Source of the DNA: a virus
IMG/VR virus record: IMGVR_UViG_3300036819_000334
Coordinates: 1-38,462 of that record
DNA: 38,462 bases
Reading direction: 5' to 3' (one strand)
Part shown: positions 4,538 through 31,431 of the stretch, piece by piece
Layout of the letters: each line of letters opens with the position of its first letter
How positions within the stretch are numbered: the first letter of the stretch is position 1
Translations under genes and position numbers: made by a program
Notes under the pieces: model-generated
What the model was told of the DNA's origin: nothing
Seen by the model: only the letters and a program-made list of their open reading frames with translations
Databases searched by the model: none

Positions 4538-5445
4538 ATCCCGCACATCCCCCGGCACTCGTAGGCGGCCATAGCGTTCGGAAATAGCGCCCCTTGGCCG
4601 CGGTCCTCCGGCGTCGACAAGTCGACCTGGTCGAGCGGCTTCAGCGAGCGATGCAGGTAAAGCGTGCCCTTGAGAGAAAAATGCTTTGCGTCGTCACGCA
4701 GTGCTCGGTCGATCGCGACCGCATCGGCCCATGAGGTCGGGTCGTGGTCGCGAAGCCGGCGCCATTCCTCATCGCTGTGAAACGGGCAGAAGGTGCAGGC
4801 CGATTTCGGCGGGACGGTATAGCCGTGGTCGGCCAGCCACCTCATGCAGTCGATACGGGTGATCTGCCGCTCAAGGAGAGGCCAGCGAGTTTTGATCCAG
4901 CGCTCCTCCGCGGGTTTGGCCCGCACGCGTTCATCCCATGAAATCCCGACCCATTGCTCGACGATCGGCGCCTCCGGGCCGCGCGATCGTGGCTTCAGTC
5001 CCGCGAGCTGCCGCGTCTTCGCCCGGATCACGTCGAGCTTGTAATCCTGGGTGCATTGACGGTTCGTCATGCCGCTGTCGCGTTTTCGGCGCCGCCCTTT
5101 ATCCAACTCGGTGCCGCCAGCAAGCGGCAGCAATTCCCACAGCAACTGTGCCTGCGCGTTGTCGGCATTCTTCACAAAGAACGGCGGGCGCCCCCAGGCG
5201 CCGGTGAGTCCGGCGCAGGCATCGAGGATCTCTTGGCGGAGGCTGCCCTTGCTGACGACGTGGACCGGGAACGGCAGCACGTTCGGCGACATCAGCCAGG
5301 CCAGGTGCTCATACACCGCGGCCGGTTCAGATTGGGTGTCGGCGAAGATCGCGCAGTCGGGCATCGGGGTGACGTCGCCGTGCGCTGCCATCAGTGCGAG
5401 CGTCGTCGACTGTACGCCAGCGCCGAGGCTGAGGATGGTCAGCAT
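4534..5445 (-). CDS. PP-loop ATP-pyrophosphatase, PAPS-reductase-like
   Basis: A 303-residue protein of the phosphoadenosine-phosphosulfate reductase/PP-loop superfamily, which activates a substrate with ATP by adenylation. The N-terminal LSLGAGVQSTTLALM is the PP-loop, in a G-A-G-V-Q-S form without the SGGKDS consensus, followed by IFADTQSEP. Cysteines cluster as C131 (NRQCTQDYK), C200, C217-x2-C220 (ACTFCPFHSDEEW) and C297/C301 (ECRGMCGI), which could hold an Fe-S cluster or zinc. Its ATG at 5445 overlaps the MT-A70 stop (TGATG). Phage members often neighbour DNA methyltransferases. The substrate is unknown; thiolation of a base or the DNA backbone (compare DndC) is speculation. Confidence 0.82.
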   Translation of the reverse strand: MLTILSLGAGVQSTTLALMAAHGDVTPMPDCAIFADTQSEPAAVYEHLAWLMSPNVLPFPVHVVSKGSLRQEILDACAGLTGAWGRPPFFVKNADNAQAQLLWELLPLAGGTELDKGRRRKRDSGMTNRQCTQDYKLDVIRAKTRQLAGLKPRSRGPEAPIVEQWVGISWDERVRAKPAEERWIKTRWPLLERQITRIDCMRWLADHGYTVPPKSACTFCPFHSDEEWRRLRDHDPTSWADAVAIDRALRDDAKHFSLKGTLYLHRSLKPLDQVDLSTPEDRGQGALFPNAMAAYECRGMCGI

Positions 5446-14536: not shown

Positions 14537-15651
14537 GCCACGAGGGCGGCTATACCCGGCAGTTCCGGCGCCTCTGGGATAACCCGGTCTTCCGCAACAA
14601 GCAGGAGGCTGCAGTCTTCTCCTGGATGAAGGACGCGGCCCAGTGGCGACCGACGACCGTCCGCACAAAGCTCGGTCCGCTCGCGCTCGAGGTGGGCGAA
14701 TTGCTCCTCACCGAACGGCAGGTCGCCGACGATTTCGGGCTCCACAAAAACACCGTTCGGGGGCTTTTCCGACGCATGGTCCAAGACGGCATGATCGTCG
14801 TTTCCAGGACCAGTGCCGGGACCAAAGTCCGTCTCTGCAACTACCTGAAATATCAATCTGAAACGTCGGTCGACGAAGAGGTCAGGACCAGTGCCGGGAC
14901 CAAGCTAGGACCAAGCCAGGACCACGGGAGGACCGCCTATATAGATGAAAGAAGGGAAGGAATAGAAGAAGGGAATCAAGAGATGCGCGAGGGCGCGCAT
15001 CCGGCGCGCACGGCGTTGCCGCGCGCATCTCTCTTCGTTGACGAATCTCGGAAGGGGGATGATTTCGACGAGTGGTGGGCGGTGTGGCTGAAAGCCGGCG
15101 GCCCCAACCGCGACAAGAAGCGGGCTCGGTCAGCCTATTGGAAGGCGCGGAAGCACTTCACCCGAGCTGACCTGATCACCGGCATCGAACGCTTTCGTCA
15201 GGCAAAGCCGGCCTTCGCCGAGTGGTGCGGGGCCGCGAAGTTCTTCGATGGCGAGCGCTGGCGCGACAGCGGCGAGCCGGCGCCCCCGCCGACACCGTCG
15301 CCCGGTGAGGATGGCGCACAGATCCGGCACGAGCTCGGCGAGCCCGGTGACCGCCTGGCGCGCGACCTCGGCGCTGCGGCCTTCCGCAGTTGGTTCGTCA
15401 CATTACGGATCGACCGGCTCGGTGCTGGCGAGGTCTTTCTGAGTGCTCCGACGAAGTTCATCCGCAACTGGGTCAACACGCACTACGCCGACGCGATCGG
15501 GCGAGCGTGGAACGTCCGCCGGGTCACGATTGCGATCAGGGATGGCGATCCCGTGCCCGAACCCACGCCGGTGCCGATCGTCGCGCCCGCGTGCCCGCCC
15601 CATGAACCCGGCTTCATGCTGCCCATCATCGGCGGGAGGGCAGCTGCATGA
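14533..15651 (+). CDS. Phage replication initiator with C-terminal DnaA domain I-like segment
   Basis: A 372-residue protein. Residues ~1-110 form a phage replication-type winged helix (FRNKQEAAVFSWMKDAA, LLLTERQVADDFGLHKNTVR). A low-complexity linker (~115-165) coincides with DNA repeats. Residues ~175-245 resemble the C-terminal part of many phage replication proteins (KKRARSAYWKARKHF, AAKFFDGERWRD). Residues ~273-330 resemble DnaA domain I (DLGAAAFRSWFVTLRIDRLG, then FLSAPTKFIRNWVNTHY). In DnaA, domain I recruits the DnaB helicase, so this protein may bind the phage origin and load host helicase. Start at ATG 14533 (ATGA overlap). Confidence 0.8.
   Translation: MSHEGGYTRQFRRLWDNPVFRNKQEAAVFSWMKDAAQWRPTTVRTKLGPLALEVGELLLTERQVADDFGLHKNTVRGLFRRMVQDGMIVVSRTSAGTKVRLCNYLKYQSETSVDEEVRTSAGTKLGPSQDHGRTAYIDERREGIEEGNQEMREGAHPARTALPRASLFVDESRKGDDFDEWWAVWLKAGGPNRDKKRARSAYWKARKHFTRADLITGIERFRQAKPAFAEWCGAAKFFDGERWRDSGEPAPPPTPSPGEDGAQIRHELGEPGDRLARDLGAAAFRSWFVTLRIDRLGAGEVFLSAPTKFIRNWVNTHYADAIGRAWNVRRVTIAIRDGDPVPEPTPVPIVAPACPPHEPGFMLPIIGGRAAA
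14806..14935 (+). repeat. GGACCA iteron-like array (candidate replication origin)
   Basis: GGACCA occurs at 14807, 14819, 14885, 14897, 14908 and 14919, with GGACCG at 14930; spacing in the main cluster is 12, 11, 11 and 11 bases, close to one helical turn. The 20-base unit AGGACCAGTGCCGGGACCAA is present exactly at 14806 and 14884. An inverted TGGTCC is at 14777. All lie within the initiator gene. Confidence 0.65.
14937..14984 (+). other. Purine-rich, low-GC tract next to the iterons (possible unwinding element)
   Basis: About 48 bases running from CTATATAGATGAAAGAAGGG to AATCAAGAGA, almost all purine on this strand and well below the GC content of the surrounding genome. It directly follows the GGACCA array, as the AT-rich region follows the iterons at lambda ori. 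Confidence 0.55.
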
Positions 15652-15884
15652 GCGCCCCCGCCGACACCGTCGCCCGGTGCGAACCGATCCGTCGTGCCCG
15701 CGCGCCGCGGGAATGCTTCGCCGACGACCCCCGGTTCGACGGCCCGTGCTGGATAACGGACCCGTATCGCGCCCTCCCTACCGGGAACACCCTTCGCTGT
15801 CGTGGTTGCCACGGCACGGTCGACCCCCAGCGAAAGGGCGCACCAAGCCGCCAGGAACTCAAGGACGTGGGGATCGTGAAATGA
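15648..15884 (+). CDS. Small hypothetical protein
   Basis: A 78-residue protein (MSAPADTVARCEPIRRARAP) with a CRGCHG motif near residue 51 that might bind metal together with the other cysteines. It overlaps the initiator upstream and nrdJ downstream by four bases each (ATGA). No family recognised. Confidence 0.62.
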   Translation: MSAPADTVARCEPIRRARAPRECFADDPRFDGPCWITDPYRALPTGNTLRCRGCHGTVDPQRKGAPSRQELKDVGIVK

Positions 15885-18187
15885 TCGAGGGGATCGGAGC
15901 GAAGATCTGGGATGCCAAGTACCGGCTGAAGCGGCCGAACGGGATCATCGTCGACCAGACCGTCGAGGACACCTGGGCGCGCGTCGCCGGCGCTCTCGCG
16001 GCGCCGGAGACTAGAGGGGCCGATGTGTGGGCGAAGCTCTTCTACTGGGCGATGGAGGATTTCAAGTTCCTGCCCGGCGGCCGGATTATCGCCGGCACCG
16101 GGACCGGCCGGGACGTGACCCTTTTCAACTGCTTCGTGATGGGGATCATCCCCGATTCGCTCGACGGGATCTTCGCGCACCTCCGCGAGGCGGCGCTGAC
16201 GATGCAGCAAGGCGGGGGCATCGGTTACGACTTCTCCTCGCTCCGGCCGCAGGGATCGCTGGTGAAGGGGGTCGACGCTGACGCGTCGGGTCCGCTGACC
16301 TTCATGGACACCTGGGATTCGATGTGCCGCACCATCATGTCAGCCGGCGCGCGCCGCGGCGCGATGATGGGGACGCTGCGCTGCGATCACCCGGATATCG
16401 AGGCGTTCGTCGACGCGAAGCGCGATCCGGGCCGGCTCCGCATGTTCAACCTGTCGACCCTCGTCACCGACGCCTTCTTGGCCGCGGTCGATGCCGACAA
16501 GGAATGGCCGCTCGTGTTCGGCGGCGAGGTGCGGAAGATCGTCCAGGCGCGCGACCTGTGGGATCGCATCATGCGGGCGACCTACGACGTCGCCGAGCCC
16601 GGCGTGATCTTCATCGACCGGATCAACCGGCGGAACAACCTCGCCTATTGCGAGACGATCATCTCGACCAATCCTTGCGGCGAGATCCCGCTACCGCCCT
16701 ACGGCGCCTGCCTCCTCGGATCGATCAATCTGGCGGCGCTTGTGCGAGCCGCGTTCACCCGCGACGCCGGAATCGTCATCAGCGATCTCCGCGACCTGGT
16801 GCGGCCGGCGGTGCGGATGCTCGACAACGTGATCGACGTGTCCAAGTTCACGCTCGAGGCGCAACGGCAGGAGGCGCAGAACAAGCGCCGCATGGGCCTG
16901 GGCATCACCGGCCTTGCCGACGCGCTGATCATGACCGGCCAGCGGTACGGATCGCGCGATGCTATCCAGACCGCCGAGGACTGGATGGCGGCGGTCGAGC
17001 GCGAGGCCTATCTGGCGTCGGCCGAGCTCGCTGCCGAGAAGGGATCGTTCCCGGCGTTCGACCGCGACAAGTTCCTTGCCAGCGAGCACGTCCAGGGGCT
17101 CGACGACGAGGTGAAGACGGCGATCGCCGAGAAGGGCATGCGCAACTCGCACCTGACCGCGATTGCCCCGACCGGCACGATTTCGCTCTTTGCCGGCAAC
17201 GTCTCCGGCGGCATCGAGCCGCCGTTCTCGTTCCGCTACACCCGCGATGTCCTCCAGCCCGACGGGTCGAAGGTCACCGAGGAGGTGACCGATTTCGCGT
17301 ATCGGAAGTGGCGCGAGCTGAGGGGTGACGAGCCGCTGCCGAACTACTTCCTCGACGCGCAGACGCTCCGCCCCAAGGATCACATCGCCATGCTTGCCGC
17401 GGTCGCGAAGCATGTCGACCAGTCGATTTCGAAGACGGTCAACCTGCCCGAAACCATCCCCTTCGCCGACTTCAAAGGCGTCTACCGGCGGGCTCACGAG
17501 CTAGGGTGCAAGAGCTGCACGACCTATCGACCGAACGAGGTCACCGGCTCGGTACTGAACGTCATCCCGGCCGAGGAGAAGGCGCCGGCGCCCGGCACCA
17601 ACGTCGTGACGTTGACCGCGCCGCTCGTGGCACCCGACGAGCTCGACGGCAAGCGCTACAAGATCCGCTGGCCCGGCAGCGACCACGCCCTCTACGTGCT
17701 GATCACCGACGTGGTCGAGCACGGCCGGCCGCGGCCCTACGAAATCTTTCTGATCTCCAACGACGCCGAGTCGGACGCTTGGCGCGTCGCGCTCGGCCGG
17801 ATGATCAGCGCCGTCTGGCGCCGCGGCGGCGACGTGGCATTTGTCGCGACCGAGCTGCAGGCGATCTTCGGCAAGGCCGGCGGCGGCCACGTCAACGGCA
17901 AGTTCTATCCGTCCCTGCCGGCCGCGATCGGTCACACGATCGAACACCACATGCGGGCGATCGGCTTCCTGCCGGAGAAGCAAGAGGATCAGCACGAGAT
18001 CGCTGCCGCGCCGGCGGCAGTGGTGGGGGGAGGGGCGGGGGGGAGCAGTGTCGGTCCCCTAAGTGGCAACGCCGCCCCTCCCGTTCCCGCGTGGTTGCGG
18101 CAGTGCCCGGCCTGCGGCCAGCCGGCGTTGATCCGCGAGGAGAATTGCGACCGCTGCACGAGCTGCACCTACTCGAAATGCCAGTGA
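15881..18187 (+). CDS. nrdJ: Adenosylcobalamin-dependent ribonucleotide reductase (class II)
   Basis: A 768-residue class II ribonucleotide reductase that makes deoxyribonucleotides using vitamin B12, independent of oxygen. Visible hallmarks are TLFNCFV (Cys84), NPCGEIPL (264-271, with the thiyl-radical Cys266 and Glu268), YGACLLGSINLA (Cys277), and APTGTISLFAGN. A C-terminal Cys-rich tail (CPACGQ, then CDRCTSCTYSKC) should shuttle electrons to the active site. It is separated from the body by a Gly-rich linker encoded by a long G-tract. Presence in the early region suggests the phage raises the dNTP supply for its own replication, and that the host makes or imports cobalamin. The start at 15881 overlaps the previous stop as ATGA. 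Confidence 0.95.
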   Translation: MIEGIGAKIWDAKYRLKRPNGIIVDQTVEDTWARVAGALAAPETRGADVWAKLFYWAMEDFKFLPGGRIIAGTGTGRDVTLFNCFVMGIIPDSLDGIFAHLREAALTMQQGGGIGYDFSSLRPQGSLVKGVDADASGPLTFMDTWDSMCRTIMSAGARRGAMMGTLRCDHPDIEAFVDAKRDPGRLRMFNLSTLVTDAFLAAVDADKEWPLVFGGEVRKIVQARDLWDRIMRATYDVAEPGVIFIDRINRRNNLAYCETIISTNPCGEIPLPPYGACLLGSINLAALVRAAFTRDAGIVISDLRDLVRPAVRMLDNVIDVSKFTLEAQRQEAQNKRRMGLGITGLADALIMTGQRYGSRDAIQTAEDWMAAVEREAYLASAELAAEKGSFPAFDRDKFLASEHVQGLDDEVKTAIAEKGMRNSHLTAIAPTGTISLFAGNVSGGIEPPFSFRYTRDVLQPDGSKVTEEVTDFAYRKWRELRGDEPLPNYFLDAQTLRPKDHIAMLAAVAKHVDQSISKTVNLPETIPFADFKGVYRRAHELGCKSCTTYRPNEVTGSVLNVIPAEEKAPAPGTNVVTLTAPLVAPDELDGKRYKIRWPGSDHALYVLITDVVEHGRPRPYEIFLISNDAESDAWRVALGRMISAVWRRGGDVAFVATELQAIFGKAGGGHVNGKFYPSLPAAIGHTIEHHMRAIGFLPEKQEDQHEIAAAPAAVVGGGAGGSSVGPLSGNAAPPVPAWLRQCPACGQPALIREENCDRCTSCTYSKCQ
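18022..18043 (+). other. G-rich tract with G-quadruplex potential in nrdJ
   Basis: Runs of six, four and seven G separated by single A or C bases encode the Gly-rich linker before the C-terminal Cys motifs. The runs can supply four G-triplets. The seven-G run could also be slippage-prone. Confidence 0.5.
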
Positions 18188-19763: not shown

Positions 19764-20582
19764 ATGCCCCGCCCGCGCTCGCTGATGGCCGCCGGACGCG
19801 GTGCTGCGGTAACGCCGTTCGTCGCCTACTACCGGGTTTCGACCGAAGGACAGGGCCGTAGCGGCCTTGGACTGGCGGATCAGCGGGCGAGAGTCGCCAC
19901 TCGCGTCGCCACCGAGAACGGCCAGATCGTCGACGAGTTCACCGAGATCGAAACCGGCAAGGTCACCGATCGTGACCGGCCGCAACTGGCGAAAGCCCTC
20001 GCCGCGTGCCGCTCGAAACGGGCGGTGCTGATCGTCGGGAAGCTCGACCGCCTGGCCCGCAACGCCGTCTTCCTGTTGACCCTCGTCGAGGGCAGCGGTG
20101 AGGGCGGTATCATCTTTTCCGAGGTTCCGGTGCTACCGCCGGGACCGATCGGCAAGTTCATGGTCACCATGCTTGCCGCGGTCGCCGAGCTCGAGGCCGG
20201 GCTTATCTCGGAACGGACGAAAGCGGCACTGGCGGTCGTCAAAGCGTCGATCGAGCGTGACGGGTTCTGGATCTCGCGGAAGACCGGCAACCGGATCACC
20301 CGGCTCGGCGGCCCGCGCATGAAAGCCGGCGACGGGCACACCGGCTACCTCGGCCGGAAAGCCCAATCGCAACGGTCGGTCAGTCGCGCGAAGGACGTGC
20401 TGCCGCGGATCGCTGAAGCCCGATTGCTCGGCGACACCTCGCTGCGCCGCATCGCGGCCCGGTTGACCCAGTGGGGCATCAATCCGCCGAGCGGCGGCGC
20501 CCAATGGTACGCCGCCCAGGTGAAGCGGATTTTGGAGTTGGTCGAGACCGGGTCGCCCTCACGCGATAGTCGCGCAAGCTGA
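19764..20582 (+). CDS. Serine site-specific recombinase (resolvase/invertase type)
   Basis: A 272-residue serine recombinase. The catalytic domain begins VAYYRVSTEGQGRSGLGLAD with nucleophile Ser26 in YRVST, continues with LIVGKLDRLARN, and ends with the long helix GKFMVTMLAAVAELEAGLIS then ERTKAAL. A short C-terminal helix-turn-helix part follows (SLRRIAARLTQWGINPPSGG). It is intermediate between small resolvases and large serine integrases. Because a tyrosine integrase is already present, this second recombinase may resolve dimers, invert a segment, or be a remnant or passenger. No paired target site is obvious in the window. Confidence 0.9.
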   Translation: MPRPRSLMAAGRGAAVTPFVAYYRVSTEGQGRSGLGLADQRARVATRVATENGQIVDEFTEIETGKVTDRDRPQLAKALAACRSKRAVLIVGKLDRLARNAVFLLTLVEGSGEGGIIFSEVPVLPPGPIGKFMVTMLAAVAELEAGLISERTKAALAVVKASIERDGFWISRKTGNRITRLGGPRMKAGDGHTGYLGRKAQSQRSVSRAKDVLPRIAEARLLGDTSLRRIAARLTQWGINPPSGGAQWYAAQVKRILELVETGSPSRDSRAS

Positions 20583-21034: not shown

Positions 21035-21335
21035 CGAGTTCACCCGTGAGCGCATCCAGACCACTCAGCTCGTAAATCGCCTTACCGGGCATGCACTTGG
21101 GCGGGTCAAAATGACCGCCAGCCAAGTTGTCGCCGGCCTCGGGCTGCTGAAGAAGTCCCTGCCCGACCTGAAGAGCGTCGAGATCAGCGGCCCCAACGGA
21201 GGCCCGATCGAAACGTCGGTAACGGATGCCCGCCAGCGAAATCTTGCCCTCCTCGAACAGATCGCCCGCCGAGCTGCTGGCGGAACTGACGCCGGAACAG
21301 CGCCGGGCGGTGATGGAGGGGCTGAGCCCGGATGA
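21003..21335 (+). CDS. Probable terminase small subunit / packaging protein
   Basis: A 110-residue protein immediately before the large terminase gene. The N-terminal half is basic and helical (MAARTRKQRHDEFTRERIQT, TGHALGRVKMTASQVVAGLG), then SLPDLKSVEIS, a pattern of short small-terminase-like proteins found at this position in related phages. The C-terminus is Gly/Ala-rich. It would recognise phage DNA and direct the large subunit. It overlaps TerL by about 110 bases. Assignment rests on position and general resemblance. Confidence 0.65.
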   Translation: MAARTRKQRHDEFTRERIQTTQLVNRLTGHALGRVKMTASQVVAGLGLLKKSLPDLKSVEISGPNGGPIETSVTDARQRNLALLEQIARRAAGGTDAGTAPGGDGGAEPG

Positions 21336-22662
21336 GGCGCTGCGGTTCCCCTGGGCCTGGCGCGGTTGGTGGGCACGACCCAGCCAGCTCCCGCCCCTCG
21401 GCGACTGGCGTGTCTTCATGCTGTGCGCCGGCAGAGGATTCGGGAAGACCAGGGTAGGGGCCGAGACGGTCAGGGGTTTTGTCGAGACCGGTATCGCGCG
21501 CCGCATAGCGTTGGTCGGACCGACCGCAGCAGACGTGCGCAACGTGATGGTCGAGGGCGAAAGCGGTCTTCTGACGATCTCGCCGGCATGGCACCGGCCG
21601 CTGTATGAGCCGTCCAAGCGCCGCCTGACCTGGCCGAACGGAGCTATCGCTACAACGTTCTCGGCCGACGAACCTGAGCGATTGCGCGGACCGCAACACG
21701 ATCTCGCCTGGTGCGACGAGCTCGCGGCGTGGCGGTATCCCGAAGCATGGGACATGCTCATGTTCGGGCTCCGGCTCGGTGACGACCCCCGCGCGATCGT
21801 CACGACGACGCCGAAGCCCACCAAGCTCGTCAGGGGGTTGCTGGCCGATCCTCACACCGCCGTCGTGCGGGGAAGGACGGTCGAGAACGCCCGCAACCTC
21901 GCGCCAGCGTTCCTCACCAGCATCGTGCGGAAATACGAGGGCACCCGTCTCGGGCGCCAGGAGCTCGACGCGGAGATCCTGGATGACGTTCCGGGCGCGC
22001 TGTGGTCGCGGAAGGGAATTGACGATAACCGCCTCGGCCTGACGGCACCGCGTCCCGACATGATCCGCATCGTCGTCGCGATCGACCCTGCCGCCACGAG
22101 CGGCGAGGACGCGGACGAGACCGGTATCATCGTCGTCGGTAAGGCCCCAGCGCCGGATGGCATCGAGCACGGCTATGTGCTCGGTGACCTATCCGGTCGT
22201 CACGCGCCTACCGAATGGGCCCGCCTCGCCATCGCGGCATATCGGCAGCATTCGGCCGACCGGATCATCGCCGAGGTCAACAACGGCGGCGAGATGGTCG
22301 AGGCTACGATTCGGGTTGTCGATTGGAACGTCGCCTACAAAGCGATCCGTGCGAGCCGGGGCAAGGTCACGCGGGCCGAGCCCGTAGCAGCACTCTACGA
22401 GCAGGGGCGTGTCCACCACGTCGGTGCGTTCCCCCAGCTCGAGGATCAGATGTGCGCCTTCACGTCGGACTTTGATCGGAATGCCGCCGGCTACTCACCG
22501 GATCGGGTTGATGCGCTGGTGTGGGGGCTGAGCGAGATCTTGGTCGAGCCCATCGCCAGCGAAGGAATTTTCGAGTTGTACCGCCGGCAGGCTGCGGCTG
22601 CGGAAGCGCAGCGCGAGAAGACGACCGTGACCGGAGCCGAAGTGGAGGGTGACATTGCCTGA
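21226..22662 (+). CDS. terL: Terminase large subunit
   Basis: A 478-residue packaging motor protein with ATPase and nuclease domains. Walker A is LCAGRGFGKTR (about residues 67-77), Walker B is in LAWCDELAAWRYPE, and the coupling segment is IVTTTPKPTKLV. The RNase H-like nuclease shows VAIDPAATSGEDADETG and AEVNNGGEMVEATI, with the last acidic residue in SPDRVDALVWGL. It is of the type seen in gene transfer agents and alphaproteobacterial phages. The ATG at 21226 is used; a later ATG at 21313 would still keep the motor. Confidence 0.95.
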   Translation: MPASEILPSSNRSPAELLAELTPEQRRAVMEGLSPDEALRFPWAWRGWWARPSQLPPLGDWRVFMLCAGRGFGKTRVGAETVRGFVETGIARRIALVGPTAADVRNVMVEGESGLLTISPAWHRPLYEPSKRRLTWPNGAIATTFSADEPERLRGPQHDLAWCDELAAWRYPEAWDMLMFGLRLGDDPRAIVTTTPKPTKLVRGLLADPHTAVVRGRTVENARNLAPAFLTSIVRKYEGTRLGRQELDAEILDDVPGALWSRKGIDDNRLGLTAPRPDMIRIVVAIDPAATSGEDADETGIIVVGKAPAPDGIEHGYVLGDLSGRHAPTEWARLAIAAYRQHSADRIIAEVNNGGEMVEATIRVVDWNVAYKAIRASRGKVTRAEPVAALYEQGRVHHVGAFPQLEDQMCAFTSDFDRNAAGYSPDRVDALVWGLSEILVEPIASEGIFELYRRQAAAAEAQREKTTVTGAEVEGDIA

Positions 22663-23409: not shown

Positions 23410-25026
23410 ATGCCTCCGGCCGGCGGCAAGCGCACGCCGCTCAACCCCTCGTACACGTGGGGTGGCGGCTATGGTTCGCAGAATGACATCACCCAGTTCC
23501 GGGATGTCTATGCGCCCGATCAGGGCATCTTTTCGCCCGGCTATCCGCTTGTGCCGACTGACCCCGCCCAGGTCCGGGTCTGGGATTTCCCGGTCGGCCT
23601 CAACCAGATCTACACGCCGCGGGCTTACGAACCCGTGTCGTTCGCCGAGCTGCGCGCGCTCGCCGACGGCCACGATATCACCCGGCTCGCGATCGAGACT
23701 CGCAAGGATCAGCTCGAAAAGCTGGAATGGTCGATCAAGCCGAGGGACGAGAAGAACCCGAGGCCCGACGCACCCGCGCGCATCGACAAGCTGATCGAGC
23801 TGTGGCGCTTCCCGGACGGCGACAAGCCCTTTGCGACCTGGCTGCGCGAGTCCCTTGAGGACGTGCTGGTGCTCGACGCGCCGGCCTTCGAAATCCGCCG
23901 GAACCGCGGCGGCGATGTCATCGGTCTCGACGTGGTCGACGGCGCGACGATCGACCTTCTGATCGACGACACCGGCCGCCGGCCGCGCCCGCCAGCGCCG
24001 GCTTACGAGCAGGTCATCCACGGGCGACCGTGGAAGCTGCTGACGACCGACGACATGCTCTACCTGCCGCGCAACCCGCGCCCGCACAAGCGGTACGGCT
24101 ACGGTCCGGTCGAGCAGATCATCATGACGGTCAACATCGCGTTGCGCCGTCAGGTCCAGCAGCTACAGCACTTCACCGAGGGCAACGTCCCGCCCGGCAT
24201 GCTGAGCGCGCCGGAGAGCTGGAATGTCGAGCAGATCCGGCAATTCCAGGAATGGTTCGACTCGGTACTCGCCGGCAACACGGCGAGCCGGGCACGCCTC
24301 GTCTGGGCGCCGGGCGGCGCGAAGTATTCCGCGTTCAAAGACCCGCCGGTCAAAGACGAGCAGGATGAGTGGCTGGCCCGCGTGGTCTGCTACGCCTTCT
24401 CGCTGCCGCCGAACGCTTTCACCCGGCAGATCAACCGAGCCACGGCCGAAACGGTTCAGGAGGCCTCCCTCAACGAGGGCCAGGCGCCGCTGATGGGCTG
24501 GGTCAAACGGCTCGCCGATCACGTCATCCAGCGGGTGATGGGCCACGCCGACCTCGAGTTCGTCTGGAATGTCGACGAGCCGCTGGCGCCGCAAGATCAG
24601 GCCACGATGATAGAGGGCCTGGTCAAGGAAGGCCTCTTCACCCGCAACGAAGGCCGCGACAAGCTCGGCATGGACCCGATGCCGGATGGCGACGTGCTCA
24701 TGGTCGACACACTGTCGGGCCCGGTGCCGCTCAGCGTAGCCGCGAACCCGCCGGCACCCGCCGCCGATCCGCAAGAGCCCGCCGCCCCGAAGCCGGGAGG
24801 CGCTGATCACGATGATGATGAGTCGGGGGTAGGCAAAACCGCCGCCGGCACCTTTCACCAAGGCACGCGGGAAACTGGCACGGTCGCCGCGGCGCAGCCT
24901 CGCCCTGATGACCGCAATCGAGCGCTCCTTGACCAAGAAGCTCGCCAGCTTCTTCGCCGAGCGGGCGCACGACGTAGCGGCCCAGCTCAGCCGGTCGCTC
25001 GGGCTCAAGAAAGCCGCGGAGGCTGA
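23410..25026 (+). CDS. Phage portal protein
   Basis: A 538-residue portal protein forming the dodecameric DNA channel at the head vertex. Recognisable segments include DITRLAIETRKDQLEKLEW, RESLEDVLVLDAPAFEIRR, MLYLPRNPRPHKRYGYGPVE, YAFSLPPNAFTRQINRATAE, and the C-terminal LFTRNEGRDKLGMDPMPDGD. Gene order (terminase, portal, head protein, protease, capsid) agrees. The last ~40 residues are Arg/Ala-rich and encoded in the 119-base overlap with the next gene; they look non-conserved. Confidence 0.92.
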   Translation: MPPAGGKRTPLNPSYTWGGGYGSQNDITQFRDVYAPDQGIFSPGYPLVPTDPAQVRVWDFPVGLNQIYTPRAYEPVSFAELRALADGHDITRLAIETRKDQLEKLEWSIKPRDEKNPRPDAPARIDKLIELWRFPDGDKPFATWLRESLEDVLVLDAPAFEIRRNRGGDVIGLDVVDGATIDLLIDDTGRRPRPPAPAYEQVIHGRPWKLLTTDDMLYLPRNPRPHKRYGYGPVEQIIMTVNIALRRQVQQLQHFTEGNVPPGMLSAPESWNVEQIRQFQEWFDSVLAGNTASRARLVWAPGGAKYSAFKDPPVKDEQDEWLARVVCYAFSLPPNAFTRQINRATAETVQEASLNEGQAPLMGWVKRLADHVIQRVMGHADLEFVWNVDEPLAPQDQATMIEGLVKEGLFTRNEGRDKLGMDPMPDGDVLMVDTLSGPVPLSVAANPPAPAADPQEPAAPKPGGADHDDDESGVGKTAAGTFHQGTRETGTVAAAQPRPDDRNRALLDQEARQLLRRAGARRSGPAQPVARAQESRGG

Positions 25027-25744
25027 TCCGGCCGAACCGGACGCCGAGCACCACGACGACGGCTGGAAGGACCCCGCCCTCATCGCTCTGGCGCTGGCGG
25101 CGGTCGATCTCGGCGACTGGACCGCGCTGAACGAGCCCGTCGCCGCCGCGCTGCAGGCGATCTTTGCCGACGGTGTGACGCGCGGCATCGCGGTCCTCGA
25201 GCTCCGCGACGGAGAGACGACGACGAACGAGGCGCGGGCCCATTTTGGCCTGCCGCCATCGGCCGGCGGTGATGCGGTCCCGTCGATCGCCGTGGGCGAG
25301 CAGGTCAATTCACGGGCTGTCGCCTGGGCCGAGGAGCGCGCCGCCGATCTGGTGACCCAGATCCAGGAGAACACCCGCGACATGCTGCGCGGCAGCGTCG
25401 CCGCGGCGATAGAGGACGGCGCAACCGCTACCGAGCTGGCCGCCACCATCGCCGCCGGCGCGGCGTTCAGCGAGGCCCGCGCGCTGACGATCGCCCGCAC
25501 CGAGATCATCCGGGCGAACAATCAGGGCAACCTGACCGCCTACCGCGAATCCGGCGTCGCGACCGGCAAGGAATGGGCCACGGCCCACGACGACCGGGTC
25601 GAGTTCACCTGCGCCGCCAACGCGACGGCTGGCCCCATCGCCTTCGATGACGATTTCCCGAGCGGCGACGAAGCGCCGCCCGCCCACCCGAATTGCCGCT
25701 GCGCGTTGCTGCCCGTGACCGAGCCGCTACCGAGCGTCGATTGA
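24908..25744 (+). CDS. Head morphogenesis protein (SPP1 gp7 / Mu gpF type)
   Basis: A 278-residue minor head protein. The typical C-terminal part is ALTIARTEIIRANNQGNLTA, then KEWATAHDDRVEFTCAANA and APPAHPNCRCALLPV, with conserved Cys/His residues. Such proteins are carried into the head with the portal and help early DNA entry. The annotated ATG lies inside the portal gene. The same frame is open about 75 bases further upstream (Pro/Lys/Arg-rich), so the true N-terminus may be different. Confidence 0.88.
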   Translation: MTAIERSLTKKLASFFAERAHDVAAQLSRSLGLKKAAEADPAEPDAEHHDDGWKDPALIALALAAVDLGDWTALNEPVAAALQAIFADGVTRGIAVLELRDGETTTNEARAHFGLPPSAGGDAVPSIAVGEQVNSRAVAWAEERAADLVTQIQENTRDMLRGSVAAAIEDGATATELAATIAAGAAFSEARALTIARTEIIRANNQGNLTAYRESGVATGKEWATAHDDRVEFTCAANATAGPIAFDDDFPSGDEAPPAHPNCRCALLPVTEPLPSVD

Positions 25745-25766: not shown

Positions 25767-26381
25767 ATGAAGACCCTCTACCGCATGCCGTTCCTGTTGG
25801 CGCTCGCCGTGGTGGCTGCGCTCCTTGCCGTTCCGGTCAATCGCGCCCACGCCGCGACGATGCAGTGCCCGGTGCCGGGCCAGATCCTGGCAGTCTCCGG
25901 GTTCCCGACCAGCGGCCCCTACACCGTCGGCTCCGATGGCATCGTGACCGGCGTCAACGCCAATGACGTGCCGGCGCTGGTACAGGACGGTTGCGTGTCC
26001 CTCGGCACGACCGCCGGCATCATCGGTCGCCTGCTCGCCGCGAACATGAACGCGACCACGGATCAGCCCATTCCGATGTTCGTGAATGCGGCCGAGTATT
26101 TCCGCATCACGAAGATTTCGATGAAGAACTGCTCCGTCTCGATGACGACCGCCGCCGGCGGCGTCTACCCGGCGGCATCGAAGGGTGGCACCGCGATCGT
26201 CGCCAACACGCAGGTCTATACCGCCCTCAGCGCCGCGACGATTGCGCTCGACCTGACGATCGTCAGCGGGCCCGGCAACACGCTCTACGCCGGTACGGTC
26301 GCCCCGACGTTCGCGCTGACCACGGCGCAGGGCGCGGCCGGGACGTGCGATATCTTCGTCGAAGGCCAGGTCGGCCAGTAG
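25767..26381 (+). CDS. Structural-type phage protein with an N-terminal signal peptide
   Basis: A 204-residue protein behind a GAGGAG ribosome-binding site. The first ~29 residues form a Sec-type signal: MKTLYRMP, a hydrophobic core FLLALAVVAALLAV, and a cleavage-like AHA-AT. After it comes a domain resembling a common phage head-region protein (LLAANMNATTDQPIPMFV, ITKISMKNCSVSMTTAAGGV, YPAASKGGTAIVANTQVYTA). Cysteines at several points could form disulfides after export. A head-cluster protein with a signal peptide is unusual; capsid assembly takes place in the cytoplasm. Confidence 0.72.
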   Translation: MKTLYRMPFLLALAVVAALLAVPVNRAHAATMQCPVPGQILAVSGFPTSGPYTVGSDGIVTGVNANDVPALVQDGCVSLGTTAGIIGRLLAANMNATTDQPIPMFVNAAEYFRITKISMKNCSVSMTTAAGGVYPAASKGGTAIVANTQVYTALSAATIALDLTIVSGPGNTLYAGTVAPTFALTTAQGAAGTCDIFVEGQVGQ

Positions 26382-26402
26382 CGCGACGGCGGGACAACAC
26401 CG

Positions 26403-27059
26403 ATGCGCTTCCTTGGATCAGCCATCGCGCTGGTGACCCTCATGGTGCCGCTCTGCGCGATGGCCGATGCCACCTATCAGGCAGCGGTGCAGGGCCTCCC
26501 TGCCGCGCCGGTTGAGATGGGTACGTCGGATCAGCAAGGACACGTCATCCCGACGAGCCCGGCCAATCCTATGCCCACGTCGGATTACGGCGACCGCCAG
26601 GTCAGCGTGCCGATCGTCACTGCGGCGGCCTATGCGTCGGGCAATGACGTCGGCGGCCTCAATGCGGTGTCGTTCCAAGGGAGCGGGCCGCCGCAGCTCG
26701 TCGAGGATTTCAGCATCGCGTCAACGTCGGGCCAGACCCCGACGTTGACGGTCTATCTCTTCGACAGCCAGCCGCAGCACTCGACCTTCACCGACAAGGG
26801 CAGCTTCTCACTCGATACCACGACGCCTGGCACCGACGGGATTGTGGACGTCGATCGCCTGCTCCTTGACCCGTTCGCGCTGACCCTGGCGGCGCCGACG
26901 GGCACGACGGTGAGCTTTGCCGACGCGGCGAACCTCACGCGCCTCCCACGGTCGGGCGCGCCGGCTCTGTACTACGCGCTCGCCGCCGGCAGCATCTTCA
27001 CCCCCGGCTCAACCAGCGACTTCCGGGTCGCCATCCAAGCGGTTCAGCAGCACCAATGA
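26403..27059 (+). CDS. Second structural-type phage protein with a signal peptide
   Basis: A 218-residue protein. The N-terminus MRFLGSAIALVTLMVPLCAMA-DA is a classical signal peptide. The rest matches the pattern of a frequent phage structural protein (VTAAAYASGNDVGGLNAVSF, LTVYLFDSQPQHSTFTDKGS, ALYYALAAGSIFTPGSTSDF). It follows the previous signal-bearing gene by 21 bases and overlaps the protease gene as ATGA. Probably a head or neck decoration-type protein. Whether it is exported or the signal acts as a membrane anchor is unknown. Confidence 0.7.
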   Translation: MRFLGSAIALVTLMVPLCAMADATYQAAVQGLPAAPVEMGTSDQQGHVIPTSPANPMPTSDYGDRQVSVPIVTAAAYASGNDVGGLNAVSFQGSGPPQLVEDFSIASTSGQTPTLTVYLFDSQPQHSTFTDKGSFSLDTTTPGTDGIVDVDRLLLDPFALTLAAPTGTTVSFADAANLTRLPRSGAPALYYALAAGSIFTPGSTSDFRVAIQAVQQHQ

Positions 27060-29071
27060 CCGACACAATCGCCAAGCGCTTCTTCGTCCCCCTCGCCAAG
27101 GTCGATGCCGAAGGCCGCATGGTCTACGGCTATGCCTCGACCGAGGCCGAGGACGACCAGGGCGAGACCATCACGCTCGACGCGCTCCGCGCTGCGCTCG
27201 ACGACTACATGCAGTTCGCGAACATCCGCGAGATGCACCAACTGAGCGCCGTCGGCACGGCCGAAGAGGCTGCGGTCGACGATAAGGGCCTCTACATCGG
27301 CGCCCGCATCGTTGACCCCCGCGCTTGGGAGAAGGTCACCAGCGGCGTCTACAAGGGCTATTCGATCGGCGGGAAGGTGACGGCCCGCGATCCGACGAAC
27401 CGTGCGGTCATCACCGGGCTCAGCCTGTCCGAAATCTCCCTCGTCGACCGTCCCGCCAATCCCGAAGCGGTCTTTGACTGCTGGAAACGGAGCAAAGAGG
27501 CGATGACCGATACCGATCTCGTCATCCCGGCCGACGAGGTCGGGATCGTCCGCGCGTTCCTCACCAAGCTCGGCATCCCCGGTCTCGCCAAGGCCGGCGA
27601 CGGCGACAAGCCCTACGGCGAGGTCGAGTATGCCGATCCGGGCCACCAAGAGGATGGCAAGAAGCGCTACCCCGTCGACACCGTGGAACACATCCGAGCG
27701 GCCTGGAATTACATCCACAAACCCAAGAACGCGAAGAAATACTCGGCCGATCACCTGAAGGAGATCAAGGCGAAGATCGTCGCCGCCTGGAAGGAGAAGA
27801 TCGACAAGGACGGTCCTCCCGAGGCCAGCGACGAGAGCGGCAAGACTGCCACCGCCAGCAGCGTGGCGAAGGGCATGGAGGACATCGGCCGCTTCGCGCG
27901 GATGATCGAAGACATGTTCTGGGCCTGGGAAAAGCTCGAAATCGAGCGGGCGATGGAGGGCGACGACAGCACGCTCCCCGACGACCTCAAAAGCCTTATC
28001 GCCCAGATGGTCGCCTTCCAACAGCAGCACGCGGGCGAAGAGACCGAGGAGTTCCTGGACGGCACGGAGACGCCCGTGCTGCCGCTTTCGCCCTATGGAT
28101 CACCGATCCCGATCTACTGGGCGGCGCACGCCGAGTCGCTGCGGAAGGCCGGCAAGACCGAGCTCGCCGAGCGGATCGAGAAACTGGCGGCCGATCAGGC
28201 TGAGCCGAAAGGAGTGACCATGACGGACGACGAGATCGCGAAGCGGTCGGAGGATCAGCACCTCAAGGACGTGGCGCATGCCGCGATCCACAAGGCCCTC
28301 GGCATGGACACGATGGACGAGCGCGAGCGCGGTCATGGGGTCCAGGCCCGCGAGGCCATGAAGGCGGCCGGCGCCGGCGAGGATGGCACCGCGGACGAGC
28401 ACTCGACCGTCGACACGGCCGGCAATCCGACGCATCCCGCGCCGTCGACCGGCGGCGGCGATCCGACCGGCAAGGCCGCGCTCCTCGACGCCCATCTCGA
28501 CGCGATCGTGAAGCAGGGCGGCGGCCATCGCCACCTGATGGACATCGCCCACGAGTGTGTCCGCAAGCTGACGGACGGCGCGACGTGCAAGAGCGACGCC
28601 GCCAAGGCCGCGCGCCACAGCAAAGACGTGCTCGACAACCTGCACAAGGCCCACTTCCAGGTCTGCGCGGCCGGCGCGAAATGCGACGCCGCCGGCGGTC
28701 TGCCCGATGAGCATCAGGGCACGACCGACGACAAGAAGGACGCCGAGGTCATCGCGGATCTCGCAAAGGCGGTCTCGGCCGAGATCAGCACCGGCGTTGG
28801 CGCCGCACTGGCGGAGCTGCGGAGCGAGATGGGCGCGATTGCCAAGGACGTGGCGGCGATCAAGGCGACCCCGATCCCGGCGCAAACCATCAACCCGGCC
28901 GGCGTCACGCGCTTCACGAAAGCGAGCGACGCCGGGGCGGTCGTAGTGCCGACCGATGTGGTCGACGCGCTCGCCAAGCTGAGCGACGAGGAACGCACCC
29001 TCGCGATGATCAAGGCCGTGCATCGCAACCCGATCACGGCACCGCGACAGCCCACGGACGCAACCACGTAA
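27056..29071 (+). CDS. XkdF-like prohead protease fused to a long C-terminal region
   Basis: A 671-residue protein. Residues ~1-140 are a prohead serine protease: GYASTEAEDDQGETITLDAL, His61 in REMHQ, nucleophile Ser103 in KGYSIGGK, and SLSEISLVDRPANP. It would mature the capsid. The extension has a DGKKRYPVDTVEHIRAAWNY module (~200-260), a helical acidic region, a Cys/His-containing helical domain (HRHLMDIAHECVRKL, SKDVLDNLHKAHFQVC), and a C-terminal coiled-coil-like stretch (LAELRSEMGAIAKDVAAIKA). With no separate scaffold gene visible, the C-terminal part may serve as scaffold; this is inference. Confidence 0.85.
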   Translation: MTDTIAKRFFVPLAKVDAEGRMVYGYASTEAEDDQGETITLDALRAALDDYMQFANIREMHQLSAVGTAEEAAVDDKGLYIGARIVDPRAWEKVTSGVYKGYSIGGKVTARDPTNRAVITGLSLSEISLVDRPANPEAVFDCWKRSKEAMTDTDLVIPADEVGIVRAFLTKLGIPGLAKAGDGDKPYGEVEYADPGHQEDGKKRYPVDTVEHIRAAWNYIHKPKNAKKYSADHLKEIKAKIVAAWKEKIDKDGPPEASDESGKTATASSVAKGMEDIGRFARMIEDMFWAWEKLEIERAMEGDDSTLPDDLKSLIAQMVAFQQQHAGEETEEFLDGTETPVLPLSPYGSPIPIYWAAHAESLRKAGKTELAERIEKLAADQAEPKGVTMTDDEIAKRSEDQHLKDVAHAAIHKALGMDTMDERERGHGVQAREAMKAAGAGEDGTADEHSTVDTAGNPTHPAPSTGGGDPTGKAALLDAHLDAIVKQGGGHRHLMDIAHECVRKLTDGATCKSDAAKAARHSKDVLDNLHKAHFQVCAAGAKCDAAGGLPDEHQGTTDDKKDAEVIADLAKAVSAEISTGVGAALAELRSEMGAIAKDVAAIKATPIPAQTINPAGVTRFTKASDAGAVVVPTDVVDALAKLSDEERTLAMIKAVHRNPITAPRQPTDATT

Positions 29072-29146: not shown

Positions 29147-30652
29147 ATGAACCCCACCCAAGACACTCTCGACCTTGTCAAAACGGCTCGCGAGACCCCG
29201 AGCGACGCGATTGCGAAGTCGATCTCGACCAACACTGGCCTACTCGCCTTCGACCTTCAGGCACCGGCGAAGAACCTCTATCCCTTCGTGACGCCGCTGC
29301 GGAACTCCATCCCGCGCGTCGGCGGCGGCACCGGCACGGCGACGAACTGGCGCCAGGTCAGCGCGATCAACGGGTCGGGTTATGACGCGATGGGGTGGGT
29401 GCCGGAAGGCCAGCGCTCCGCGCAGATGTCTTACGTGACCGCGACCAAGTCGGCCACCTTCGTCACGATCGGCGAGGAAGACGGGGCGACCTACGAGGCG
29501 ATCAACGCCGGCCGCGGGTTCGAAGACATCCAGGCCCGGATGACCTTCCGTCTCCTCCAGAAAATGATGCTGAAAGAGGAGATGGCGATCCTCGGCGGCA
29601 ACGCCTCGATGCAGCTCGGCACACCCGGCACCCCGACCCTGTCGGCGTCGGGTTCCGGCGCGACGCTGCCGGCCACGACGTACTACGTCAAGGTCGCCGC
29701 CCTCACCCTCGAGGGCTGGCAGAATTCGAGCCTGACGAACGGCGTCGCCACCACCAAGCCGATCACCGGCGCCGACGGCCATTCCTACACGCTCAGCGGC
29801 GGGTCATCGAACATCAGCGCCGAAAGCTCCAGCCAGTCGGTCAGCGCCGGCAACACGCTGTTCGCAACGGTGACCGCGCTCCAGGGTGCCGTGGCCTATG
29901 GGTGGTTCGTCGGCACCGCGTCGGGCGCGGAGACGCTGCAGGCGATCACCACGATCAACAGCGCCGCCTTCTCGGCTCCCCTCACCGCCGGCGCGCAGCC
30001 CGCCACGGCGGTCACCGCCGACAATTCGGCGAACCCGAGCTACGCCTATGACGGGCTGCTGACCAGCGCGCTTAAGTCGGGCTCCGGTGCCTACGTCAAG
30101 ACGATGGCGACGGGCACCGCCGGCACCGGCACGCCCCTCACCGCGTCGGGCCGCGGTTCGGTCGTCGAGATCGACACGATGTTTCAGACGATGTGGAACA
30201 ATTTCGAGCTGTCGCCGACCGTGCTCTACGTCAACTCGCAGGAGCTCGGCAACCTGACGACCAAGGTGCTGAACGGATCGTCCTCGCCGCTGCTCCGTTA
30301 CAACGAGCCCGGCGATGGGGATGCGTTCAACATCACCGCCTCGGGCACGATCGGCTGGTACTACAACCCCTACAACACGGCGAACGGCACCCAGACCGGC
30401 CTCCGCATCCCGATCCGGCTGCACCCCCGCGTCCCGCCGGGCACGATCGTCGGCTGGGCCGAGCAGCTGCCGATCCAGTACCAGTCGAGCGAGGTGCCGA
30501 ACGTCGCCGAGGTCAAGACGCGACAGGATTACTACGAGATCGACTGGCCGATCGTGACCCGCCAGCGCCAGGTCGGCGTCTACGCCGAAGAGGTGCTGGC
30601 CGTGTACGCGCCCTTCGCAATGGGCGTCATCAACAACATCGGCAACGGCTGA
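29147..30652 (+). CDS. Major capsid protein with inserted Ig-like domain
   Basis: A 501-residue HK97-type capsid protein with an AAAGGGAAG ribosome-binding site. Capsid features include YPFVTPLRNSIPRVGGGTGT, the MGWVPEGQRSAQMSYVTATK beta-hairpin-like region, the spine helix GFEDIQARMTFRLLQKMMLK, and the C-terminal IVTRQRQVGVYAEEVLAVYA. Between about residues 157 and 290 lies an insert of beta-strand, Gly/Ser/Thr-rich sequence (TPTLSASGSGATLPATTYYV, AYGWFVGTASGAETLQAITT) typical of Ig/FN3-like surface domains. No N-terminal delta domain is obvious, so assembly may use the fused protease/scaffold. Confidence 0.92.
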   Translation: MNPTQDTLDLVKTARETPSDAIAKSISTNTGLLAFDLQAPAKNLYPFVTPLRNSIPRVGGGTGTATNWRQVSAINGSGYDAMGWVPEGQRSAQMSYVTATKSATFVTIGEEDGATYEAINAGRGFEDIQARMTFRLLQKMMLKEEMAILGGNASMQLGTPGTPTLSASGSGATLPATTYYVKVAALTLEGWQNSSLTNGVATTKPITGADGHSYTLSGGSSNISAESSSQSVSAGNTLFATVTALQGAVAYGWFVGTASGAETLQAITTINSAAFSAPLTAGAQPATAVTADNSANPSYAYDGLLTSALKSGSGAYVKTMATGTAGTGTPLTASGRGSVVEIDTMFQTMWNNFELSPTVLYVNSQELGNLTTKVLNGSSSPLLRYNEPGDGDAFNITASGTIGWYYNPYNTANGTQTGLRIPIRLHPRVPPGTIVGWAEQLPIQYQSSEVPNVAEVKTRQDYYEIDWPIVTRQRQVGVYAEEVLAVYAPFAMGVINNIGNG

Positions 30653-30656
30653 TCCG

Positions 30657-30896
30657 GTGAAGAAGGCTGATCTGGTCGCCGCGCTGAAAGATGCCGCGGC
30701 GGCCATCGATCAGCAAAAGGTGGCTATCGCCTATCTGATCGATCGAAGCATCGCGTGGGCCACGCTCGCCGGCAACTGCGGAGCCCGCGTCGTGGAGCTG
30801 CGGCACGAGCTCGACGAAGCGCAATCGCGGCTCGCGCTCTACGAGGGCGTCGCCGCACGCCGGCGTGCCGAACAGGTGGGTCATTACGATGCCTGA
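30657..30896 (+). CDS. Small coiled-coil hypothetical protein
   Basis: A 79-residue protein from a GTG at 30657, four bases after the capsid stop. It is nearly all helical (LVAALKDAAAAIDQQKVAIA, ELRHELDEAQSRLALYE). No family recognised; it lies in the head-completion region and overlaps the next gene by 8 bases. Confidence 0.6.
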   Translation: MKKADLVAALKDAAAAIDQQKVAIAYLIDRSIAWATLAGNCGARVVELRHELDEAQSRLALYEGVAARRRAEQVGHYDA

Positions 30897-31431
30897 CATC
30901 CCCGTTTCCAACCTCGTCCGCCTACAGGCCCGCTTCGGCCAGGACGAGGTCAACGTCGGTCGTGGGCGCTATCGCGTCGGCCTCGACGGCACCGTGCTCG
31001 TTCCCCGCGAGGCGGTCGATTCCCTACTTTCCACTGGAGGCTTTGCTATGGCCGATCTACCGCTGCCCGTGCCGACCGGCATGGCGCGCCTTGCCCACCC
31101 CGAGCACATCGGTTGCGCCTTCGGCGGCAAGACCTATGAGCCGGGCGCCGACGGCACCGTGCTCGTTCCCGCCGAGGCGGCGGCGGTCCTGATGGAGGCG
31201 CACGGCTTCTGCACGCCGAGCCCCGCGCTCGAGGTGCCGGTCGATCCGCGCGATGCCGAGCTGGCTGCTCTGCGGGCCGAGCGTGACGATCTGCAAACCA
31301 AGCTCGCCGCGGCCGAAAAGCCCGCGAAACCCAAGCCCGCGAAGGCTGCGGATGGCCCCACTGGCGCTACCGGCCCGACTGGCGCGAGCGGTGCGGGCTC
31401 GACCGGCGCCACGGGCACTGCGGGGGCCTGA
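30889..31431 (+). CDS. Duplicated-module protein with collagen-like tail
   Basis: A 180-residue protein. Two related modules are visible: GRYRVGLDGTVLVPREAVDS and GKTYEPGADGTVLVPAEAAA, each followed by a helix ending in GGF or HGF. A short coiled coil follows (LAALRAERDDLQTKLAAAEK). The C-terminus is Lys/Pro/Ala-rich and then carries Gly-X-Y repeats (GPTGATGPTGASGAG). The arrangement suggests an elongated trimeric appendage attached near the head-tail joint. Function not known. Confidence 0.65.
   Translation: MPDIPVSNLVRLQARFGQDEVNVGRGRYRVGLDGTVLVPREAVDSLLSTGGFAMADLPLPVPTGMARLAHPEHIGCAFGGKTYEPGADGTVLVPAEAAAVLMEAHGFCTPSPALEVPVDPRDAELAALRAERDDLQTKLAAAEKPAKPKPAKAADGPTGATGPTGASGAGSTGATGTAGA

Follow-up and report, generated by a model that had tools for sequence, protein, structure and literature searches.

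Two genes with leaders in the head module

In this work we analysed two genes, called A and B, in a window of 38,462 nucleotides that is the whole of IMG/VR virus record IMGVR_UViG_3300036819_000334. Both genes sit among late head genes, in the order terminase large subunit, portal, Mu-F head morphogenesis, A, B, prohead protease with DUF6582 and major-capsid-like (MCP-like) gene (Table 1). This order bears out the first-pass annotation, which had placed A and B between a portal/head gene and the prohead protease, and gene position points to a capsid role for the MCP-like gene. No promoter or terminator-like site was found in the A–B interval.

The prohead protease gene encodes 671 amino acids (AA), combining the protease with DUF6582 and a long C-terminal stretch in what is possibly a protease-scaffold fusion. 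Elsewhere in the window lie a DNA methyltransferase (2360-4558), a ribonucleotide reductase large subunit (15443-18187) and a resolvase/invertase-type recombinase (19764-20582). Comparison of the N-terminal module of A with the downstream ORF 30865-31431 gave no significant match (hhalign E 0.13).

Table 1. Features of the late gene block discussed in the text (↓, predicted cleavage site).
Feature	Position	Strand	Properties and evidence
Terminase large subunit	21226-22662		
Portal gene	23410..25026	+	PF04860, E 1.6e-24; without signal
Mu-F-like head morphogenesis gene, left flank	24908..25744	+	PF04233, E 3.4e-15; without signal
Gene A, 204 AA	25767..26381	+	Signal peptide, short N-terminal module and C-terminal jelly-roll domain; ORF, relatives, model (pLDDT 85), fold matches
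A, predicted Sec/SPase I signal peptide, 29 AA	25767..25853	+	Cleavage AHA↓ATMQ; counterparts in L002, L004, L022, L043
A, mature N-terminal module	25854..26000	+	YTxxxxGIVTGVxxNDVxALxxxGC; Cys34 and Cys76; alignment
A, C-terminal domain, predicted jelly roll	26016..26378	+	GANMNATTDQ...SLTTAAGG...SLTTAQGAAATADIYV family; Cys122 and Cys194 (NCS/TCD pair)
Gene B, 218 AA	26403..27059	+	Signal peptide and beta-sandwich body; no Cys in mature part; model (pLDDT 60)
B, predicted Sec/SPase I signal peptide, 21 AA	26403..26465	+	CAMA↓DATYQ; ortholog L261 with GGAGGT start
Prohead protease (S78-like) with DUF6582 domain, right flank	27056..29071	+	Without signal
MCP-like gene	29147..30652	+	phrog_13692 (unnamed family), E 1.1e-97; without signal

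Predicted signal peptides and their start sites

The leader of A, MKTLYRMPFLLALAVVAALLAVPVNRAHA↓ATMQC, has the SD sequence AGGAG 8 nt from its start, and the leader of B, MRFLGSAIALVTLMVPLCAMA↓DATYQ, has a weak SD. The signal peptide prediction proposed as a check in the first-pass annotation was made with a heuristic scorer that looks for a positive n-region, a 10-residue uncharged hydrophobic core and AxA-type residues at -3/-1. By this scorer a positive n-region, a hydrophobic core and an AxA-type site are present at both N-termini, A (5.12) and B (4.57) have the top two signal scores among all listed window ORFs, and 18 other window genes received no signal call. For A, the observed score was reached by 5e-5 of whole-protein shuffles and by 0.4% of shuffles confined to residues 2-41; for B, the corresponding fractions were 1.5e-4 and 0.2%. 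Both leader stretches are coding-like by codon-position GC (GC3 0.86). Since direct reading of the two leaders found neither a lipobox nor a twin-arginine motif, they are best described as of the Sec/SPase I type; the A leader has no Cys, and the B leader has VPLC with Leu at -1, which is not a lipobox. Lipoprotein (SPase II) and Tat readings were rejected on the same grounds.

Internal ATGs exist at 25860 in A and at 26460 in B, and the leaders might result from mis-called starts if translation began there, downstream of the hydrophobic stretch. However, neither ATG has an SD in front, the internal Met is missing in relatives (ALTYQC in L003 for A, KADPTYQ in L261 for B), good SDs precede the upstream starts of window A, L002, L022 and L261, and the leaders show coding GC3, which leaves this explanation hardly credible. 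The Sec signal peptides that the first-pass annotation had claimed for both genes are thus confirmed as predictions by scores, shuffles, GC3 and conserved starts, and the downstream starts that it had named as refuting them are set aside.

Presence and absence of the signal on the A domain

The C-terminal domain of A has many relatives in IMG/VR. The set comprises 144 distinct domain sequences, reduced to 102 representatives at 90% identity, and a signal is present in 29 of these and absent from 73. An SD-preceded start lies before the leader in most signal-bearing forms and directly before the body in signal-less forms. The L003 gene (2110-2709) has an intact leader with no ATG, GTG or TTG start ahead of it, owing either to a sequencing error or to an unusual start; homology alone is the basis for placing it among the signal-bearing forms. 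On a Cys-masked tree the signal state changes 9 times, and at least 3 changes are forced by well-supported branches. Both forms are found at the same site between portal/MuF and protease, signal-bearing in the window, L002, L003, L004, L022, L043 and L155, signal-less in L009, L012, L027, L030, L061 and L192. L155 is 65% identical to the window in the portal, 55% in the protease and 78% in the MCP, and its gene at the A site encodes 483 AA, related to A only in the C-terminal part, with the signal and 10 mature Cys kept. The leader of A diverges freely among orthologs yet keeps its signal character, and the N-terminal module of A also opens signal-less relatives. We read the signal peptide as an exchangeable module on the A domain. 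The first-pass annotation mentions neither this alternation among relatives nor the pairing of cysteines described below.

Direct tblastn of INPHARED phages returned no relative of A or B, and an INPHARED search via the signal-less relative L053 returned no A-domain relative; PHROGs and Pfam gave no name for the body of A or B, and a PDB sequence search gave no match. A bacterial genome scan yielded 3 A loci, none of the three with a signal under our start rules, and among 385 genomes of the class of one alphaproteobacterial MAG the single match was that MAG itself. Because bacterial genomes gave so few loci, the A family looks essentially viral.

Gene B and its relatives

Direct searches with B found no relatives. 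A remote relative beside the A gene in L192 (phmmer 1e-6) led to about ten more, of which the closest is the L261 ortholog, 66% identical over the whole protein, whose start has GGAGGT and which has a leader of its own, MRNRRVPAALLMAAAMLPAAVAAKA↓DPTYQ. The leader has diverged between the window and L261 and is still a signal, and the body is much better conserved. The signal comes and goes on B as it does on A. Three B-type genes carry a signal (window, L261 and L192); in L192 the signal-bearing B is adjacent to a signal-less A, and in both L192 and L261 a further signal-bearing ORF comes after B. The relatives without a signal are Seuss gp047, L249, L251, L256, L258, L259, L262, L263 and L264.

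Cysteines of the A family

The cysteines provide what we consider the strongest evidence for export, for the A family only since mature B has none. Mature signal-bearing relatives of A have 2, 4, 6, 8 or 10 Cys, and the count is even in 28 of 29 by script; the sole exception is L003, where the script, cutting inside the protein, counts 3, and where inclusion of the upstream ALTYQC gives 4, making all 29 even. In the signal-less relatives, 37 of 73 have no Cys, and non-zero counts are odd in 23 and even in 13. The domain contains at least two Cys in 18/29 signal-bearing versus 3/73 signal-less representatives (Fisher p 7e-10, a value that overstates independence, as even counts and pairs are partly inherited within clades). 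Complementary pairs recur among signal-bearing domains: NCS with TCD in 14, seven of which also have a start-Cys with DQxC, a domain-start Cys with a C-terminal CRP in 8, and NCS with TGC in 3. All these pairs are absent from the 73 signal-less domains, in which the single NCS and the single TCD are each unpaired. Window A has one pair in the N-terminal module and one in the C-terminal domain (Table 1).

A phylogenetic pair test offered 3 usable pairs on supported branches and is underpowered, and independent events are fewer than the raw counts. Among automatically called neighbours parity holds less well than among the relatives of A, counts being even in 15/19 signal-bearing (p 0.02) and 59/149 signal-less proteins, probably as a result of gene-calling and cleavage-site errors. 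Selection in an oxidising periplasm would be expected to produce several distinct pairs, each seen only with a signal. The A family shows the pattern expected of periplasmic disulfides, with Cys that are even in number, paired and linked to the signal; the pattern is inapplicable to mature B.

Cleavage is only predicted, and an uncleaved hydrophobic N-terminus might act as a membrane anchor or as a hydrophobic plug for cytoplasmic assembly. This is very unlikely, given that short h-regions and AxA sites are found across clades, that even, paired mature Cys are confined to signal-bearing forms, and that the B leader diverges freely between window and L261 with a much better conserved body. The membrane anchor for assembly put forward in the first-pass annotation is therefore disfavoured, by the AxA sites, the freely diverging leader and the even, paired Cys of mature A.

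Predicted folds

The AlphaFold model of A (pLDDT 85) was compared with known structures. Its best four VIA rows are all phage cement or capsid-decoration chains, KHP40 (Z 8.6), KHP30 (8.4), Pam1 (8.0) and GP4 (7.8), a Z of about 8 being close to the level of unrelated beta sandwiches; BPP-1 reached Z 6.0, and Foldseek matched the A model to Pam1 with E 0.013. On this model A would be a jelly roll nearest to phage capsid cement proteins, near background. The B model, which is weak (pLDDT 60), resembles generic viral jelly rolls (Z <8), and its best BFVD match is Seuss gp047. The virion-type body proposed at first reading is supported.

Jelly rolls match carbohydrate-binding modules too (A model versus 4d3l, Z 6.8), as might be expected if A and B were exported non-virion proteins acting in the periplasm or at the cell surface, for example by binding receptors or glycans and so masking entry sites (superinfection exclusion), their domains having been taken over from phage particles. 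Any periplasmic destination would agree with the signal and Cys data, and known exported phage proteins such as Lom and signal-bearing endolysins act on the envelope. However, A and B lie among late head genes and not with early or lysogenic genes, and signal-less forms, for which the periplasm is out of reach before lysis, stand at the same site in related phages. We consider a non-virion role unlikely, if deserving of some weight.

Signal-bearing neighbours in related contigs

Signal-bearing relatives often lie within runs of other signal-bearing virion-like genes. In contig G392 (44 kb; L026) such a run comes after terminase, portal and MCP genes, the terminase being assigned by family search and the portal and MCP by position and reading. 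Among the products of this run (L026 263-7328) are one that resembles tail fibres (phrog_863, E 2e-12) and one of 668 AA with features of a tailspike; mature Cys counts are even in an automatic listing. Clusters of at least two signal-bearing structural-type genes are present in L005 (3986-5372), L115 (2647-7187), L017 (4845-6675) and L151 (4373-7959). Of 13 related contigs searched, 9 gave matches to terminase or portal families, G393 only weakly (E 5.5e-4), and most of the 13 are thus tailed phages. RR motifs occur in the leaders of L005 9107-9655 (LRRSFLKG) and L192 5198-6352 (PRRGLLFG), and these leaders may direct export by Tat instead of Sec.

Two neighbours in relatives have family matches below the Pfam cut-off, a GH16-like gene in L009 (142-792; PF00722, E 0.0013) and the laminin-G-like L192 5198-6352 (PF13385, E 0.002). 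Together with the signal-bearing tail-fibre-like genes of L026, they would suit a role of A and B as secreted matrix or debris binders that compete for surface polysaccharide and so help progeny escape the lysed cell or biofilm, together with glycosidase-like proteins secreted from neighbouring genes. The enzyme matches are weak, however, neither A nor B shows a catalytic signature, and we find this role quite unlikely.

Export and destination of A and B

At the sequence level, the signal peptides, the repeated switching between forms with and without them on one domain and, in the A family, the pairing of Cys with the signal indicate that A and B are very probably exported and processed. For cleavage, disulfide formation and the binding partners of the mature proteins we infer the following scheme. 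A and B would be made together with the late head genes, leave the cytoplasm via Sec and be cut by signal peptidase I; both would fold in the periplasm, A with disulfides; at lysis the exported proteins would meet finished particles, or debris, and act outside as decoration proteins. We favour binding to the virion at lysis because the genes lie in the head module, the predicted fold is cement-like and forms lacking a signal exist at this site, and we give this step an even chance. Coating of the particle at lysis is accordingly the use of the signal that we prefer among those suggested by the first-pass annotation, and its proposal of display in the envelope is left standing. The reading as a whole, that A and B are Sec-exported virion-decoration-type jelly-roll proteins, folded in the periplasm and meeting particles at lysis, is in our judgement evenly balanced between right and wrong. 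A broader proposal, somewhat more doubtful, is that, in several tailed-phage lineages, some of the outer coat or fibre proteins may be exported via Sec, disulfide-bonded and added to the particle only at or after lysis, assembly being split between cytoplasm and periplasm and the signal being an exchangeable module on decoration-type domains.

If decoration-type proteins do travel via Sec to the periplasm and become oxidised there, either part of the surface is added at lysis or free copies of surface domains are released. Either outcome would alter the annotation of phage surface proteins, as a signal peptide predicted within a head module would not have to be an annotation error, and export itself can be tested directly.

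Comparison with known phage proteins

Tailed-phage particles are thought to be assembled wholly in the cytoplasm, and the capsid cement proteins of KHP40/KHP30, Pam1, GP4 and BPP-1 assemble there and are not known to carry a signal peptide. These jelly-roll proteins (from H. pylori phages KHP40 and KHP30, cyanophage Pam1, Ralstonia phage GP4 and Bordetella phage BPP-1) are like A in the predicted fold of its C-terminal domain, and gene A lies in the head module, as expected of a capsid cement protein; identity in structural alignments is 8-14%, and no sequence-level homology with them was found. Gp047 of Caulobacter phage Seuss, a hypothetical protein, is homologous to the body of B (top BFVD match, E 7e-7, 30% identity), but has no signal peptide and is located after spanin genes. 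Decoration-type proteins are already known, and Sec export is the new part: in the literature searched, whose scope lay largely outside subscription journals, we found no description of signal peptides in virion-type phage proteins. Signal peptides have been described for phage lysis and envelope proteins (PMC6116005, PMC12309495, PMC9144972), and PMC10698182 reports none in its phage proteins. The endolysin Lys44 of fOg44, SAR endolysins, Rz1 spanins and Lom use the host export pathway (PMC6116005, PMC12309495, PMC9144972), as predicted for A and B; those proteins act on the envelope, whereas A and B are particle-like and lie in the head module.
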